A stretch of DNA of 8,075 nt. Source: Candidatus Latescibacterota bacterium. GTDB lineage: Bacteria; JAAXHH01; JACQVL01. The notes below the pieces were generated by a model. That model ran no database searches and was not told the origin of the DNA. It worked only from the letters and a program-made list of their open reading frames with translations. Location: contig JACQVL010000266.1 in NCBI GenBank assembly GCA_016209865.1, forward strand, positions 1 through 8,075, given 5' to 3'. A program made the position numbers and the translations under genes. Below, in pieces: positions 2,847-8,075 of the stretch; within the stretch, counting starts at the first letter, position 1; every line of letters starts with the position of its first letter.

Positions 2847-4520
2847 TCACTTCACCCACGGCGCCTTAAGCGCCCGGCCGGCCAGCGCCCGCGTGGGCTG
2901 CCCATTCTCGACGGCCAGTTGACCGTTGACGAACACGTGCGTGATGCCCTCCGCAAACCGGCGGCTGTCCTCGTACGTCGCCCGGTCGATGACCTTCTCC
3001 GGGTCGAACACGACTAAGTCAGCGGCGCACCCTTCGCGCACCTGCCCGCGGTCGGTCAGCAGGAACCGGCGCGCCGGGGCGGAGGTGATATGCCGGATCG
3101 CCTCTTCTAAATCGAGCGCCTTCTGCTCCCGTACGTACACCCCTAAGTACCGGGCGAACGCCCCGTGCGCCCGCGGGTGCGGCCGGCCGCCGATGAAGAT
3201 GGCGTCGCTGCCTAACATGTGCGCCCGGTGGCTCATCACCCGGTACAGATCGGCCTCGGTGTACGTCGGCTCCGGGAACTGTACGACGCCGACCGCCATG
3301 TTCTCCGCGACAAGGAGGTCGCAGACGAAGTCGGTGACGCTCTTCCCGGCCTTGTCCGCCGCCTGTTTCGGGTTCAGTCCCTCGTACCCCTTGTGCTCGG
3401 GACGGGTGACGGTGCTGATGTGCATCCGTTCCCACGGGAACGTCTCGAGCCGGTCGCGCAGCCGCTGGCGGGTGTCTGCGGCCTTCAAACGAGCTACCGT
3501 CGCCGCGATCCCCCCTTCCTGCGCCCATTCCGGCAGGGACATCATCGCTAAGATCGAACTGCCGGCTAAGTACGGGTAGGTGTCGAACGTGACGTCGATC
3601 CCGGCCGTCCGTCCGGCGTCGATCAGGCCGAGGATGTGCTCGGCTTTCCCCTTGTAATGGGAGATGTGTACGCCAACGCCCGATCGCTCCCCGATCTCAA
3701 GCGCTTCCTCTACTGCCGCATCGAAGCCTTTTCGATTGTACCGGATGTGGGTGACGTACGGCCCGCCGTAAGAGGCGACCGTCTTACACAGCTCGACTAA
3801 TTCATCCGTCGTCGCGTAGACACAGGGGATGTAGTCGAGGCCGGTCGAATACCCGGCCGCTCCTTCGTCCAGACTTTTGACGAGAAGGCGGCGCATCGTC
3901 TCCAGTTCGGAGGCGGTCGGCGGGCGCGTCTCTAAGCCCATCGCCTCTAAGCGGAGCGCGCCGTGCGGGACGAGGTAAGCGACGTTGATGGCGATGCGGC
4001 GGTCGAGCCGGTTCAGGTACTCGGCCACCGACTGCCAGTTCCAGTCGACGACCGGGTTGCCGTTCACGGCGGCGAAGTACTCCCGCATGAACGCCATGTT
4101 CTTCTGTGACATCGGCGCGTAGGAGGTGCCGTCCTGTCCTAAGATTTCCGTCGTCACTCCCTGACGCACGGCCGGCTCGTGGTACGGATCAGCCAGGAGC
4201 ACCGCGTCGGAATGGACGTGCGTGTCGATGAACCCCGGACAGACGATCTGTTCCCCGGCGTCGATCACGCGCTTCGCGTTCGCGCCGTTGAGCGGGCCGA
4301 CCGCGGCGATCCGGTCTCCGACGATCCCGATGTCGCCCCGGAACCACGGCGCACCCGTCCCGTCCACGATGCGGCCGTGTGTGATCAGAACATCGAACGT
4401 CGCCACAGTCCGCCTCCTTTGTGGAGATACGCTCTGAGATTGCGACTCCGCCGGCCTGTGGGTGAGGCCACCCGCCAGCGCAGCGAAGCCGACCGTGCGG
4501 AGAAACGTGCGTCGGTGCAT
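2847..4520 (-). CDS. Tat-signal amidohydrolase, N-acyl-D-amino-acid deacylase family
   Basis: A 557-residue member of the D-aminoacylase branch of the amidohydrolase superfamily, which hydrolyses N-acyl-D-amino acids or related amides at a zinc centre. The N-terminus HRRTFLRTVGFAALAGGL (residues 2-19) is a twin-arginine signal with a short hydrophobic core; no clear AxA cleavage site follows. The catalytic core shows HxH at His101/His103 in CPGFIDTHVH, His258 in YVTHIRY, His288 in HISHYK, and Asp439 in MLGSDA, followed by the family HPRAHGAF motif at 448-455. The cysteine ligand position of classical D-aminoacylases (GNCG) is here Asp130 in GQDG. The C-terminal beta-sandwich ends with the usual AADLVVFDPEKV and VFVNGQ segments. 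Two starts are possible: ATG 4520 (encodes the Tat signal, no Shine-Dalgarno) and GTG 4406 (strong Shine-Dalgarno, gives a 519-residue leaderless protein beginning just before FDVLITHGRIVDG). The substrate is not predictable from sequence. Confidence 0.9.
   Translation of the reverse strand: MHRRTFLRTVGFAALAGGLTHRPAESQSQSVSPQRRRTVATFDVLITHGRIVDGTGAPWFRGDIGIVGDRIAAVGPLNGANAKRVIDAGEQIVCPGFIDTHVHSDAVLLADPYHEPAVRQGVTTEILGQDGTSYAPMSQKNMAFMREYFAAVNGNPVVDWNWQSVAEYLNRLDRRIAINVAYLVPHGALRLEAMGLETRPPTASELETMRRLLVKSLDEGAAGYSTGLDYIPCVYATTDELVELCKTVASYGGPYVTHIRYNRKGFDAAVEEALEIGERSGVGVHISHYKGKAEHILGLIDAGRTAGIDVTFDTYPYLAGSSILAMMSLPEWAQEGGIAATVARLKAADTRQRLRDRLETFPWERMHISTVTRPEHKGYEGLNPKQAADKAGKSVTDFVCDLLVAENMAVGVVQFPEPTYTEADLYRVMSHRAHMLGSDAIFIGGRPHPRAHGAFARYLGVYVREQKALDLEEAIRHITSAPARRFLLTDRGQVREGCAADLVVFDPEKVIDRATYEDSRRFAEGITHVFVNGQLAVENGQPTRALAGRALKAPWVK
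4404..4420 (-). promoter_or_regulatory. Internal ribosome-binding site and GTG start inside the deacylase gene
   Basis: The minus strand reads AAAGGAGG (4413-4420), CGGACT spacer, then in-frame GTG (4404-4406, codon 39). The motif and 6-nt spacing are the same as at the M28 peptidase start. Initiation here would remove the whole Tat signal and linker while leaving the intact catalytic core, giving a cytoplasmic form. The GTG could also be the only real start. Confidence 0.6.
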
Positions 4521-4530
4521 GGGAGGATTA

Positions 4531-4699
4531 GGGGTCAGGAGTCAGGGGTCAGGGGTCAGGAAAACCATAAAAAGCAAAGGACAAGATCGAATGTCAAAGG
4601 TTGAAGGTCAGATTCCGACCTGCGACCTTATGACCTGCGACTTGTGACCTGTGATCTATTCCCTTCCCTGACCCCTGACCCCTGAATCCTGACCCCTGT
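4531..4699. repeat. Heptamer-repeat island 1 (TCAGGGG type) with inverted outer arrays
   Basis: The left array, 4531-4561, is four 7-bp units (GGGGTCA, GGAGTCA, GGGGTCA, GGGGTCA) plus GGA. The right array, 4665-4699, has five units of the reverse-complement type (TCCCTGA, CCCCTGA, CCCCTGA, ATCCTGA, CCCCTGT). The arrays can pair over a roughly 100-bp core that holds further heptamers. The island spans the gap between the cupin and deacylase genes, starts 10 bp before the deacylase ATG, and encodes the last 15 residues of the cupin. The organisation resembles the short tandemly repeated repetitive (STRR) heptamers known from filamentous cyanobacteria; homology to those is not shown. Confidence 0.88.
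4594..4659. repeat. Inner heptamer array (GACCTGC type) within island 1
   Basis: On the right, 4617-4659 reads GACCTGC, GACCTTA(+T), GACCTGC, GACTTGT, GACCTGT, GATCTAT, six 7-bp units with one extra base. On the left, 4594-4614 reads TCAAAGG, TTGAAGG, TCAGATT, which is loosely the reverse complement. It forms a second, shorter inverted arrangement nested between the outer TCAGGGG arrays. Confidence 0.75.
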
Positions 4700-5063
4700 C
4701 TCTTATCAAATGCCCTCCCCGCGCGCCCGGAGCGGGGGTGCTCGAAAACTGGAAGTACGTCAGCGGATGGTCGGCATGAAGGGTGTGCTCGACGCCCCGG
4801 AGGGTGGCGACCAAATCGCTGGATTCCAGATGGTAGACCTTCTGAGTTCCGTCCGGCAGGCGCAGCGTGACCGTCGGATGCCCGTCCGTGAACAGCCAAT
4901 ATTCATCAATATCGTGATAATGTAATTCCACGTCCGCGTTCGCGGGCAGGACGAACTCGTGCATCGACGCGATGTTGACCGGGTCGAGCAGGGCGGCTAA
5001 TTCTGCCGAGATTCGCTCGCGTGCGCGCAGACGGATGACGCAGAGATCGGGGTTAGTGATCAT
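4656..5063 (-). CDS. Small single-domain cupin protein
   Basis: A 135-residue cytoplasmic protein with one cupin barrel. Cupin motif 1 is exact: His48-x-His50, three residues, Glu54, six residues, Gly61 (HYHDIDEYWLFTDG). Motif 2 is present around LRGVEH with His93, though the usual proline is Leu88. His48, His50, Glu54 and His93 can form a complete metal site. Function within this very broad superfamily (isomerase, dioxygenase or binding protein) cannot be told. Start ATG 5063 has GGAGG at 5068-5072, a short 4-nt spacer. Residues 121-135 (RDRGQDSGVRGQGRE) are translated from the heptamer array at 4665-4699, so the natural fold probably ends near residue 110-120 and the tail is repeat-derived. 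It is separated from the FAH gene by 166 nt and from the deacylase by 135 nt, both filled by repeat islands. It also contains the window's only TTA codon not followed by G (TTA-CAT, residue 47). Confidence 0.85.
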   Translation of the reverse strand: MITNPDLCVIRLRARERISAELAALLDPVNIASMHEFVLPANADVELHYHDIDEYWLFTDGHPTVTLRLPDGTQKVYHLESSDLVATLRGVEHTLHADHPLTYFQFSSTPAPGARGGHLIRDRGQDSGVRGQGRE

Positions 5064-5075
5064 GAGGCCTCCGAA

Positions 5076-5225
5076 GGTCAGTGGTCAGTAAGGGCAAACA
5101 GCATAAGAGCGATAGTGGATGATCGATGGTTGGTAAAAAATTAGGAGTCATGAAGAATGGGTATGAATAAGCTCGTATACGTTCTTGCTCTTTGGTTTTA
5201 ACTGACTACTGACCACTGACCACTG
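5076..5225. repeat. Heptamer-repeat island 2 (TCAGTGG type)
   Basis: Left side GGTCAGT, GGTCAGT (5076-5089); right side ACTGACT, ACTGACC, ACTGACC, ACTG (5201-5225), the reverse complement. Inward of the arrays, AAGAGC (5105-5110) and GCTCTT (5187-5192) extend the inverted relation. The core is clearly lower in GC than the flanking genes and has no convincing open frame. It fills the 166-nt gap between the FAH stop and the cupin start; the left array ends only a few bases before the cupin ribosome-binding site at 5068-5072. I could not assign a promoter in the core. Confidence 0.85.
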
Positions 5226-5229
5226 TTTT

Positions 5230-6141
5230 CTATCCTTCCGCCTGCACTCCATTCCTCAGCGCGCCTAACTTCTCGATCTCCCCTTCGACGACATCCCCCG
5301 ACTGGAGGTACGTCCCGGTGGTGTCCCCGACGCCTGACGGGGTGCCGGTCGAGATGATGTCCCCCGGTTCGAGGGTCACCAGATGGGAGCAGAAGGAGAC
5401 GAGCTCGTAGACATTAAAGATCATCTGGCCGGTGTTCGCGTCCTGGCGGGTCTGGCCGTTGACCTTGAGTCTCATCGTCAGGGCGTGCGGATCGCCGACC
5501 TCATCGGAGGTGACGAGGTACGGCCCCATCGCGCCGAACGTGTCGAACCACTTCCCGTTCAGCCAATCGAAGAAGTCGTCCATCGGACGCGGTTCGCGTC
5601 CCTCCGCGATCGTGAGCGACCGGGCGGAGACGTCGTTGAAGATCGTGTACCCGGCGATGTACGCCGCGGCGTCTTCCGTCGAGACCTCCTTCGCGTGTTT
5701 CCCGATGACGACGGCGATCTCCAGCTCGTAGTCGACCGCGTTCGACCAGCGGGGAATCCGGATGGCGGTTCCGGTCCCGATGACCGACGTGCCCGGCTTC
5801 ATGAACACGCGCGGGGTGATTTTCGACTTATCGACCGCCTGGCCGCCGCCTTCCTGGATGTGCGCCTGGTAGTTGCCCGCTAAGGCGAGGACTTTCGACG
5901 GGTAGGGCACCGGGGCGAGCAGAGCGGCCTGGTCGAGGGAGATGTACGGGACGTTGTGGAGTTGAGCGGCCACACGCCGGGTGACCTCCAGTTCCTCATC
6001 GAGTGTCAGCAACGCCGTCATATCGGGCGGGAGGCTGGCGCCGACGGACGCGGCGGCGGCGGCGAGGTCGTACACCTTCTTGCCCTCGCAGATTCCGGCG
6101 CGCGGGGTTCCGTCAGCAGAAACGAACGTGACGAGTTTCAT
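5230..6141 (-). CDS. Fumarylacetoacetate hydrolase (FAH) family enzyme
   Basis: A 303-residue member of the FAH superfamily, whose enzymes cleave C-C bonds in acylpyruvate-type beta-diketo acids, or hydrate or isomerise 2-keto-dienoates. Residues 1-80 are the small N-terminal domain. The catalytic domain shows the lid motif NYQAHIQE (90-97; His94/Glu97 match the usual catalytic pair), metal ligands Glu139 and Glu141 in DYELEI and Asp170 in FNDVSAR, then KWFDTFGAMGPYLVT, PGDIISTGTPSGVG and the closing GEIEKLG. Within the family it looks like the homoprotocatechuate-isomerase / fumarylpyruvate-hydrolase / FAHD1-like group; the substrate cannot be set by sequence alone. The start at 6141 is fixed by GAAGGAG five bases upstream and by the typical MKLVTF opening. 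A longer reading back to 6255 is repeat-derived. The ATG overlaps the TGA of the upstream gene (ATGA), implying translational coupling. No other aromatic catabolism genes are nearby. Confidence 0.92.
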   Translation of the reverse strand: MKLVTFVSADGTPRAGICEGKKVYDLAAAAASVGASLPPDMTALLTLDEELEVTRRVAAQLHNVPYISLDQAALLAPVPYPSKVLALAGNYQAHIQEGGGQAVDKSKITPRVFMKPGTSVIGTGTAIRIPRWSNAVDYELEIAVVIGKHAKEVSTEDAAAYIAGYTIFNDVSARSLTIAEGREPRPMDDFFDWLNGKWFDTFGAMGPYLVTSDEVGDPHALTMRLKVNGQTRQDANTGQMIFNVYELVSFCSHLVTLEPGDIISTGTPSGVGDTTGTYLQSGDVVEGEIEKLGALRNGVQAEG

Positions 6142-6713
6142 AGGAGCTCCTTCGTTGGGATGATGGATTCCCGCGTGCGCGGGAATGACAGCAGCAAATC
6201 CGGTTGAATGTCTGCCTCTGGCACCGGTGGAGGGTCGACCCGGTGGGTCGCCCAATCCGGTTTCAATTCCTCATCCGTGGCCATGCGGATGAGGTCAGGA
6301 ATATGCTCCGGGCCGAGGCCGAGGTCAAGATAATTAGGCCATTCGTGGAAATTGAGACAATTCCCGAACGTGAGCAGCCTGTCCACGGGGGATGGGTAGA
6401 CCATCTTCACGACCGTGCGCTCCCCCGTTTCGATCGCGGCTTCAGTCTCTGCCGCCTGGTCGTCGCGTTCGTGCGCTTCTTCCTCGATGATCGCGTCGTC
6501 ATCCGACTGGAACCCGGACACGCTAAACTGTCCCAGCGCCCGGAGGAATTCGTCCCTGGAGACGCCCGCGATCTCCGCCGCTTTGTCTTGCGAGATGAGC
6601 CGCAGCTCGTACCATTTGACCGCCGCGGCTAAGCGGAGCTCCCGCGAGAACTGCTCCGGTTCCATGCGCAGGAGCGTCACGATGTCTTCGGGGATGTTGA
6701 TGGGCAGTTCCAT
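6138..6713 (-). CDS. UPF0175 (antitoxin-like HTH) fused to a truncated second domain
   Basis: A 191-residue protein. Residues 1-70 match UPF0175, a small helix-turn-helix family often found as putative antitoxins: INIPEDIVTLLRM, then AAAVKWYELRLISQDKAAEIAGVSRDEFLRALG, ending in the usual GVSGFQ-like segment (SVSGFQ, 64-69). UPF0175 proteins are normally about 80-90 residues. Here an acidic linker (about 70-100) leads to a second segment, VYPSPVDRLLTFGN...EWPNYLDLGLGPEHIPDLIRMATDEEL (from about residue 105). That segment resembles the opening of larger bacterial HEAT-repeat-like proteins, which normally continue much further. After about residue 160 the sequence is Pro-rich, and residues 176-186 (SFPRTRESIIP) are the translation of a dispersed palindromic repeat. 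I read it as a fusion whose 3' end was replaced by the repeat; it may be a decayed gene. The start has AGGAG eight bases upstream. No PIN-type toxin partner is adjacent. Confidence 0.72.
   Translation of the reverse strand: MELPINIPEDIVTLLRMEPEQFSRELRLAAAVKWYELRLISQDKAAEIAGVSRDEFLRALGQFSVSGFQSDDDAIIEEEAHERDDQAAETEAAIETGERTVVKMVYPSPVDRLLTFGNCLNFHEWPNYLDLGLGPEHIPDLIRMATDEELKPDWATHRVDPPPVPEADIQPDLLLSFPRTRESIIPTKELL
6164..6190. repeat. Dispersed palindromic repeat (ATTCCCGCG hairpin) in a gene 3' end
   Basis: ATTCCCGCGTGCGCGGGAAT at 6167-6186 is a perfect 9-bp inverted repeat around TG, flanked by the typical TGG and GACA. It belongs to the widespread type of dispersed repeat whose translations give SFPRTRESI or VIPAHAGIH. 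It is translated in the UPF0175-fusion frame and lies 25 bp upstream of the FAH start. Confidence 0.88.
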
Positions 6714-6811
6714 AGAGCAAGCTCCTGAGAGGGGGATTTGAGACGTTTCCCTTTATTACCTTACATTACTCACCGCTTCTAATGAGGTTTGATGATCAAA
6801 ACAGGTCATCC

Positions 6812-6867
6812 GTAGGGGCGATCCTTGTGATCGCCCGCATCGGGGCGAATACAAGATTCGCCCCTAC
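6812..6867. repeat. 56-bp double-hairpin repeat element
   Basis: Two adjacent hairpins: GGGCGATC-CTTGT-GATCGCCC (6816-6836) and GGGGCGAAT-ACAAG-ATTCGCCCC (6842-6864). The ends are an inverted GTAGGGGCGA / TCGCCCCTAC, so the whole element is also an imperfect palindrome, and the two 5-nt loops (CTTGT, ACAAG) are complementary. It looks like a REP/BIME-like or MITE-like non-coding element. It lies in the 266-bp gap between the right-hand dehydratase and the UPF0175-fusion gene. A half copy lies at 615-643. Confidence 0.85.
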
Positions 6868-6903
6868 AGGTCTTTACCGATTTTGTTCGTCAAAGTTCAT
6901 TAG

Positions 6904-6952
6904 TGTCATTCCCGCCCCCGCTTCCGCGAGGGTAAACTGCAGCGGGAATCCA
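6904..6952. repeat. Second ATTCCCGC repeat, opposite orientation, long loop
   Basis: TGTCATTCCCGC (6904-6915) and GCGGGAATCCA (6942-6952) are the two arms of the same repeat as 6164-6190, but separated by a 26-nt segment that itself contains GC-rich hairpin-like sequence (CCGCTTCCGCGAGGG). It starts 28 nt past the right-hand dehydratase stop and could serve as a transcript-end hairpin, though no T-run follows on the minus strand. Confidence 0.75.
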
Positions 6953-6979
6953 TGCTCTTCCCCCCTTTAAACACGTTCC

Positions 6980-7936
6980 TTACATCATCTCCCTCAGCAT
7001 CTCCGGTGCCAGGTTCCCCCCACTGAAGATGACGACGACCCGCTGGCCCGCCCAGGCGCGCGCCCGCTTGAGACAGAGCGCAAACGGCGCCGCGCCCGCA
7101 CCCTCCGCAATATATCCTGTCTTTTCCAGGATCAACGGGATGGCCTGCCACATCTCATCCTCGGTGACCAGATCGATGTCGTCGACCAGAGCCTTGAGCA
7201 CCTCGAACGCCAGTCCGCCGGGGTACCGGGTCGCCAATCCACCCGCGAACGTATCACACGATTCGGTCGTGACGAGATGTCCTTGTCGCCACGAAAGAAA
7301 GACCGAAGGCGCTTTCTCCGCCTGGACGCCGACGATGCGGACGTTCGGGCTCAGTCCCTTCACGGCCAGCGCCAGCCCAGCGATCAAGTTGCCGCCGCCG
7401 ACAGGCACGACGATCACCTCCGTCTCCGGCAACTCCTCGATAACCTCCAGCCCGATCGTCCCCGCGCCCGCCATCAGACCGGCATCATCCCCATCCTCGA
7501 TGTACACCATCCCGCTTTCCTGAGCAAGTTCTTTCGCCCGGTCGAACCCTTCCGCGATGTCATGCCCGAACACGATCAGCCGGGCGTCGAGGAGTTGGAT
7601 CGGCTCCGTCTTCACGGCCGGCGTGCCGTGCGGGACGATGACCGTCGCGGGTACCCCCAACGCGTTCGCTGCATACGCGATGCCCTGGCCGTGATTGCCC
7701 GTCGATGCGGTGATCACCCCGTGCGCCCGCTCCTCCTCGCTCAGGAGGGAGAGACGGTAAAGCGCGCCCCGGAGCTTGAACGACCGGATAGGCTGGTGGT
7801 TTTCGTACTTGATGAACAACTCAACACCTAACATCTGGCTGAACGCGGGCGAACGATAAAGCGGTGTCGGACGGAGGTGTGACCGGAGGACGGCACGGGC
7901 TTTGATGATCTCAAGGAGGGTGGGATGGGCAGGCAT
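6980..7936 (-). CDS. PLP-dependent threonine/serine dehydratase (complete, short form)
   Basis: A 318-residue fold-type II PLP enzyme without an ACT domain, so of the short catabolic or TdcB/serine-racemase-like architecture. Key features are Lys54 in RSFKLRGA (Schiff base), ASTGNHGQG (77-85), the phosphate loop VPVGGGNLIAG with Gly180-Gly182, and SGGN close to the C-terminus (about residue 305). The residue before SFK is Arg51 where Gly is usual, and the preceding ENHQPI differs from the common ENxQxTG, so substrate preference may differ from standard threonine dehydratase. The likely product is 2-oxobutyrate or pyruvate plus ammonia; a racemase or an unusual hydroxy-amino-acid lyase is possible. 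ATG 7936 is preceded by AAGGAG with an 8-nt spacer. It is the first gene of the minus-strand series in the window, with a heptamer island upstream and 266 nt of repeat-bearing DNA downstream, so it may be transcribed alone. Confidence 0.92.
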   Translation of the reverse strand: MPAHPTLLEIIKARAVLRSHLRPTPLYRSPAFSQMLGVELFIKYENHQPIRSFKLRGALYRLSLLSEEERAHGVITASTGNHGQGIAYAANALGVPATVIVPHGTPAVKTEPIQLLDARLIVFGHDIAEGFDRAKELAQESGMVYIEDGDDAGLMAGAGTIGLEVIEELPETEVIVVPVGGGNLIAGLALAVKGLSPNVRIVGVQAEKAPSVFLSWRQGHLVTTESCDTFAGGLATRYPGGLAFEVLKALVDDIDLVTEDEMWQAIPLILEKTGYIAEGAGAAPFALCLKRARAWAGQRVVVIFSGGNLAPEMLREMM

Positions 7937-7956
7937 GGCAGGGACTCCTTGTTGCT

Positions 7957-8075
7957 CGGGGTTCAGATAACACCCGGGGTTCGGGATTCGGGGAAATCAG
8001 AAGGCAGAGAGCCAGGCGTTAATTTTTGCTGCCCGCTGCTTTCTGTTTCCTGTCCCTTCCCGAACCCCGAACCCC
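7957..8075. repeat. Heptamer-repeat island 3 (TTCGGGG type), continues past window edge
   Basis: Left units CGGGGTT, CGGGATT, CGGGG (7975-7993), with a further CGGGGTT at 7957-7963. Right units AACCCCG and AACCCC (8063-8075) are the reverse complement, running off the edge. The core (about 7994-8055) is lower in GC and holds a loose inverted match (CAGAAGGCAG near 7998-8007 against CTGCTTTCTG near 8036-8045). It occupies the region upstream of the right-hand dehydratase. No gene is visible in it. Confidence 0.8.

Follow-up and report, generated by a model that had tools for sequence, protein, structure and literature searches.

Heptamer islands in the window

The window is the whole 8,075-bp contig C228 of a draft genome of a Candidatus Latescibacterota bacterium (3.75 Mb in 356 contigs, 83% complete). 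All of its genes lie on the minus strand. They include an M28 peptidase, an amidohydrolase, an FAA hydrolase, a UPF0175 protein, and a PALP enzyme whose closest relatives are in Candidatus Latescibacterota and Gemmatimonadetes drafts (62-65% identity). Three intergenic islands accompany these genes, each with an array of 7-bp repeats facing its reverse complement across a core (Table 1). A preliminary description, made from the sequence alone, had placed the islands at these positions with facing heptamer arms and cores of lower guanine-cytosine (GC) content. Both features are present, the arms having a GC content of 0.52-0.68. We show here that arrays of this kind are widespread in the source genome and occur in phages, and we tentatively read the islands as exchangeable fold-back spacers.

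Table 1. Arms and cores of the three islands, in window coordinates.
Feature	Positions	Strand	Composition	GC of core	Nearest gene border
Island 1 left arm	4530..4560	+	4.4 units of TCAGGGG; AGG(GGTCAGG)(AGTCAGG)(GGTCAGG)(GGTCAGG), G-strand inward		Begins 10 bp ahead of the longest amidohydrolase open reading frame (start codon at 4520, - strand)
Island 1 core	4561..4665	.	AAAACC..., then degenerate GGTCRNA heptads pairing with each other	0.44	
Island 1 right arm	4666..4698	-	Reverse complement of TCAGGGG units, one GGAT unit among them		
Island 2 left arm	5076..5090 (about)	+	Only about two TCAGTGG units		Begins 13 bp upstream of a start codon (5063, - strand)
Island 2 core	5091..5200	.		0.39	
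Island 2 right arm	5201..5225	-	3.6 units of ACTGACC		Ends 5 bp from the FAA-hydrolase stop codon (5230, - strand)
Island 3 left arm	7957..7994	+	TTCGGGG/TTCGGGA units, interrupted		Begins 21 bp ahead of the start codon for the PALP enzyme (7936, - strand)
Island 3 core	7995..8056	.	More CAG-led heptads pairing with each other	0.52	
Island 3 right arm	8057..8075	-	CCCCGAA units, truncated at the contig end		

Island 3 is incomplete because it lies at the end of the contig. The contigs C149, C282, C27, C223, and C298, like the window itself, end in or beside heptamer islands, which are thus a probable cause of assembly breaks. The open reading frame 4656-5063 runs into the right arm of island 1 with its 3' end (window 4656-4698), and its predicted C-terminus (...GQDSGVRGQGRE) is therefore encoded by the repeat. 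Further arrays also overlap gene ends.

As DNA, island 1 has a predicted fold of -55.6 kcal/mol (z -12.2 against shuffled sequence). The corresponding z values are -3.9 for island 2 and -4.7 for island 3. Within the window, Rfam gave 0 matches above the gathering score. Islands 1 and 2 had no match in a plasmid collection, a result limited by the low-complexity filter of that search.

Period-seven arrays in the source genome

The plan seen in the window is not peculiar to it. We made a census of 767 kb of the source genome (about a fifth of the draft) with an ungapped array detector and an array score of at least 14. It returned 133 arrays of period 7; the next periods were 14 (9 arrays) and 8 (4 arrays). 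Part of the 767 kb was picked for TCAGGGG matches. A less biased subset of 295 kb held 38 period-7 arrays and at most two of any other period. Shuffled sequence gave no period-7 array even at a looser score of 11. About a third of the sizeable intergenic gaps carry heptamer arrays.

The arrays use at least a dozen unrelated heptamers. The most frequent families are AGTGACN (50 arrays), TCAGGNN (31), ATTTTNG (29), and GGTCGGT (20), followed by TTCGGGG (11), AAGGACN (10), CAGTGNT (10), and others. The three words of the window had been described as related, and they are indeed close to each other. This kinship is not a general rule, because the words across the genome are very diverse.

Array lengths fall into two clusters, 23-25 bp and 30-33 bp (the mode), corresponding to 3 or 4 units and about 3 extra nt. 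In the AGTGAC and ATTTT families, most arrays begin and end in one phase, and the phase is largely fixed in the larger families. Among 150 arrays of six families, 86 parse as four units, 42 as five, 21 as three, and one as nine; the parser often takes the 3-nt end and its flank as one unit.

Different words are nested or stacked at L088:6734-6917, L095:10061-10133, and L112:3816-3877, as if one island lay inside another (for example GGTCGGT, then AAYAATC, then AGTGACN). Other heptamer arrays are present in Gemmatimonadetes contigs: GGGGCGT opposite CGCCCCA at L044:46-130, and GGCATC plus one variable base at L048:2598-2680.

Polarity, pairing and placement at gene borders

Genes were called with a simple home-made caller, so that borders are approximate (coding fraction 0.88). 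Of 188 arrays, 154 lie wholly or partly outside the called genes, where only about 12% of the sequence is found. The outer edge of an array stands at a median of 4 bp past a stop codon or 21 bp ahead of a start codon. The gene behind the G-strand is the closer one in 112 of 135 arrays, at a median of 11.5 bp against 99 bp for the gene ahead.

Neighbouring arrays on opposite strands and at most 300 bp apart are always convergent, with the G-strand inward in 50 of 50 pairs. The loops between facing arms are mostly 20-160 nt. Both partners use the same heptamer word in 34 of these 50 pairs, where 14% (about 7) would be expected. Arrays without a facing partner stand at a median of 8 bp from the gene border, and paired arrays at 12 bp. 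Since the unpaired arrays follow the same placement rule, polarity is tied to the gene border.

Defined arrays in other genomes and phages

The units of an array do not vary at random. Counted from the outer edge, unit 2 of the four-unit AGTGACN arrays differs from GACGAGT in 22 of 28 cases. In the four-unit ATTTTNG arrays, unit 2 deviates in 14 of 20 and unit 4 in 1 of 20. Moreover, one exact 31-mer, ATTTTGGATTTTAGATTTTGGATTTTGGATT, is found again in phage contigs and in genomes unrelated to the source. With a non-G at unit 2, it is found 29 times in the source genome and 18 times in four others (G055, G186, G044, and G039), here called unrelated in that their kinship to the source is "same domain" only. 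With a non-G at unit 3, it is found 7 times in the source genome and 0 times in the other eleven genomes searched. In IMG/VR, the form with A at unit 2 has 13 listed matches in 10 stretches; unit 3 has one and unit 1 has three. Because unit 2 is usually the deviant one and the exact 31-mer recurs, the arms look like copies of defined sequences.

The distribution of the words is uneven. The ATTTTNG pattern occurs in 17 of 288 genomes, patchily, and is rich in some of them (G055, G044); these match counts include overlaps, and the numbers of arrays are lower. It is absent from most genomes of the same order. The reversed control matches two genomes, both without the true pattern. AGTGACN is nearly private to the source genome, and GGTCAGN is rare outside it, except for GGTCAGC in G245, one of the few long homogeneous arrays. 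The period-9 word ATCCTGTNN is present in 8 of the 288 genomes and its control in none. The comparison genomes closest to the source belong only to the same order, and most of those sampled have no arrays. The sister genomes G002-G010 are array-free, and G044, G055, and G186 are, like the source, rich in arrays.

Comparison of phage junctions

Several array-bearing IMG/VR contigs carry head, portal, terminase, or tail genes, and PHROG matches confirm the head and tail genes. Heptamer arrays are thus also present in phages or prophages. We compared, junction by junction, a small set of five phage contigs whose major head proteins are 94-100% identical. The period class of the spacer (7, 8, 9, or none) differed in 30 of 55 comparisons. 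Less than 30% of the spacer could be aligned in 18 of 55 comparisons, against 0 of 87 for coding segments.

L237 has ATTTTNG arms at junction 7799-8111, where period-9 words are found in L238, L239, and L245, a different one in each. At another junction, L239 has a short array-free spacer and L237, L238, and L245 have hairpins. Where the words differ at one junction, facing arms are often retained. Junction 8561-8681 is conserved, with GTCCAAG-type heptamers in all four relatives compared. The more distant L242 has only 12 bp there, in contrast to the islands of the close relatives. Spacers outpace genes in evolution, and divergence alone is unsurprising. The notable point is the presence of unrelated iterated arms at the same place. 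Facing arms in the contigs L237-L240 and L245 also have period 8 (ATTGAGTG) and period 9 (GAGTTCATT, ACAGGATNN, and AACGCAGAG-like).

Island cores and other dispersed hairpins

Island 1 is one of eight alignable dispersed copies in the source genome, with about 75-85% identity over the matched parts. The core of this family is found in both orientations between the arms, and its inner GGTCRNA heptads extend the hairpin. Conservation of the core is limited to this family and a second small one.

A REP-like hairpin (after the repetitive extragenic palindromes, REP), ATTCCCGC...GCGGGAAT(GAC/CC), is repeated in gaps and inside island cores. It is seen in the window at 6165-6190 and 6904-6955, and in the cores of islands in L100, L107, L109, and L113-L115. 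A second dispersed hairpin, TAGGGGCGATCC...GGATCGCCC / GGGGCGAATAC..GATTCGCCCCTA, lies in two window gaps (6820-6870 and about 621-652) and elsewhere in the genome, for example in L011 near the contig end.

Interpretation of the islands

Our preferred reading, which we hold tentatively, is that the islands may be dispersed short fold-back spacer cassettes. Their arms would be copied from a shared vocabulary, and the cassettes would turn over in place. In a typical cassette, a core would be flanked by two facing arms, each about 24 or 31 bp long (3 or 4 heptads plus 3 nt), and the cassette would fill the whole gap from the border of one gene to that of the next. The arms would come from a limited set of defined arrays, rather than from independent local slippage. 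Cassettes would spread within the genome, and some of the arms would also pass from one unrelated bacterium or phage to another. With its flanking genes still in place, a gap could lose its cassette or exchange it for another whose words differ (period 7, 8, or 9). We infer that the spread would occur by copying or transfer of DNA, through a putative activity, encoded by host or phage, for which any core would do. As for the tight placement on gene borders, the simplest explanation would be selection removing insertions elsewhere, together with compaction of the remaining gap. The "mobile non-coding element" proposed in the preliminary description is in this sense still live, although no transposase or recombinase is linked to the arrays.

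Several other observations weigh against these cassettes. No facing array exists for 74 of the 135 arrays that lie between two called genes. Most islands have unrelated cores, save the island-1 family and the common REP-like inserts. Target-site duplications were not seen by eye in the island-1 copies or in the phage spacers. Y1_Tnp (PF01797), the transposase domain of the REP-associated tyrosine transposase (RAYT) type, was undetected in the source genome (G000, 83% complete) and in G013; a RAYT system with REPIN elements was rejected for lack of it in the source genome. Partner arms agree in word but not in variants. Lastly, identical arrays in distant genomes could come from constraint rather than from transfer.

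A wider form of the same reading is unlikely in our view. Here, a pan-bacterial pool of fold-back cassettes with words of 7, 8, and 9 bp would move between bacteria and phages. They would be swapped between a stop codon and the next start codon by a putative activity recognizing structure more than sequence.

The main rival, somewhat unlikely, is that the islands are RNA-level insulators under selection. The hairpin in the transcript would end, cut (in the manner of RNase III), or protect the neighbouring messages, and the words would be interchangeable because only pairing matters. The strict inward polarity, the agreement of words between partners, and the strong predicted folds of islands 1-3 all suit this explanation. 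So do the positions of the arms past stop codons and before start codons, which leave room for ribosome binding, and the facing arms kept at phage junctions despite different words. On the other hand, the arrays have no terminator-like bias in their gaps: they occupy 13 of 44 divergent, 73 of 209 tandem, and 4 of 19 convergent gaps. This spread and the loop lengths leave a classical intrinsic terminator unsupported, although other RNA roles are compatible with it. An insulator also fits poorly with the many unpaired arrays, of which only 15 of 70 tested had a weak complementary stretch, and with partner arms no better matched in detail than random partners. Among the eight copies of the island-1 family, no predicted pair had a compensatory change on both sides; this is a weak test, given the poor alignment and 11 inner consensus pairs. 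RNA structures separating transcripts, an option in the preliminary description, are possible, but the arrays are equally common in divergent and tandem gaps and are often unpaired, which speaks against them.

Independent local slippage is quite improbable. It would proceed in 7-bp polymerase steps, with hairpin-guided template switching that copies one arm to the other; the idea of a polymerase footprint has been published for heptamers (cited in PMC4692102). A single period serving many unrelated words would be explained in this way, as would the few long homogeneous arrays such as GGTCAGC in G245. Conversely, the set array lengths and phase, and a deviant unit that is usually unit 2, fit simple slippage badly. 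The unit-2 bias holds in the source and in other genomes, which is hard to reconcile with it. One 31-mer in unrelated genomes, and phage islands that use periods 8 and 9 too, also count against it. The copying between arms can be judged from their variants. It would predict shared rare variants, and the partners do not have them: their variant similarity was 745, against 786 +/- 15 for shuffled partners. This permutation rejects fine-scale copying of one arm into the other; a second scoring gave z -1.9. When partner arms were matched in reversed unit order, the signal was marginal (one-sided p 0.049, z 1.7). The local copying or co-evolution of arms that was first suggested is thus not borne out; of the claim that arms match within an island, the shared word stands and the shared variable bases do not. 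The slight deficit of similarity might reflect avoidance of perfect long palindromes, but this is only a suggestion.

Very improbable are arrays that bind DNA- or RNA-binding proteins marking gene borders, with one protein per word. They would be expected to have a defined sequence and a defined phase and polarity with respect to the gene border, as the arrays do, unpaired ones included. Nevertheless, a dozen words per genome would require a dozen proteins, and at phage junctions the place of one island is taken by another with a different word.

G-quadruplexes are hardly credible as a general explanation: the G-runs of TCAGGGG and TTCGGGG arrays and the preference for four units (as in PMC4692102) could support them in single families, but the same plan in the AGTGACN, ATTTTNG, AAGGACN, and CAGTGNT families, all without runs of three G, refutes them for the rest.

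If islands are exchanged as units, this would be a common but uncatalogued turnover of DNA acting on intergenic space. Our findings point to a poorly described class of exchangeable intergenic DNA.

Comparison with known repeats

Reports of heptamer repeats go back to the 1990s; they were seen as curiosities of single genomes and explained by slippage or G-quadruplexes. A literature search for the letters of our arrays gave no paper on such arrays in bacterial genomes; the matches were one genotyping paper for TTCGGGG and three for the ATTTTNG letters, all unrelated.

The kinship to the cyanobacterial short tandemly repeated repetitive (STRR) heptamers, proposed in the preliminary description, is supported: these too have period 7, are intergenic, and use several words. 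The paired plan and the unit-2 pattern are without description in the accounts of STRR available to us. Like REP and REPIN elements, bacterial interspersed mosaic elements (BIME), and miniature inverted-repeat transposable elements (MITE), the islands are short, dispersed, extragenic, and hairpin-forming. They differ in that their cores are mostly unconserved, unlike those of ordinary MITEs, and a RAYT-type gene was not found. REPINs are marked by a conserved imperfect palindrome of 20-40 bp, in place of which the arms here are iterated heptads of many words.

MacGregor 2015 (PMC4679880) described TAACTGA direct repeats in Beggiatoaceae, Cyanobacteria, and Bacteroidetes and suggested horizontal transfer. 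As here, they are intergenic heptamer arrays common to distant lineages. Unlike our islands, they are direct arrays of one word, inverted in just one case, and most lie ahead of start codons. In the P6b stem of the Nostoc trnL intron, two unrelated words of heptanucleotide repeats can build the same stem (PMC4476775). Our ATT(TTNGATT)4 family fits their Class I word, TDNGATT, exactly, and in each system heptads on both sides of the stem pair. The Nostoc heptads lie inside an intron RNA, whereas our arrays are intergenic.

The closest precedent is that of Rehm et al. 2015 (PMC4692102), with GGGAATC in Xanthomonas and GGGGA(C/T)T in Nostoc. These heptamers are mostly intergenic and prefer four units. 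They form 70-75 convergent pairs per Xanthomonas genome and few in Nostoc, and G-quadruplexes were discussed for them. Our arrays share the intergenic position, the convergent pairs, the near gene behind the G-strand, and the four-unit preference. The differences are also clear. The repeats of Rehm et al. use one word per genome and stand at conserved locations; here there are many words per genome, and the content of a junction often differs in the phage set. Most of our words have no G-runs, therefore the four-unit preference needs another cause. The positional variant at unit 2, the exact array common to unrelated genomes, and the exchange of whole islands that the phages suggest are further points of difference. 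The plan itself was already known from that work, and a reading by exchange would be new. With many words on one plan, mostly incapable of quadruplexes, and an array shared with unrelated genomes and phages, the questions "why seven?" and "why four units?" become testable on one set of related phages.

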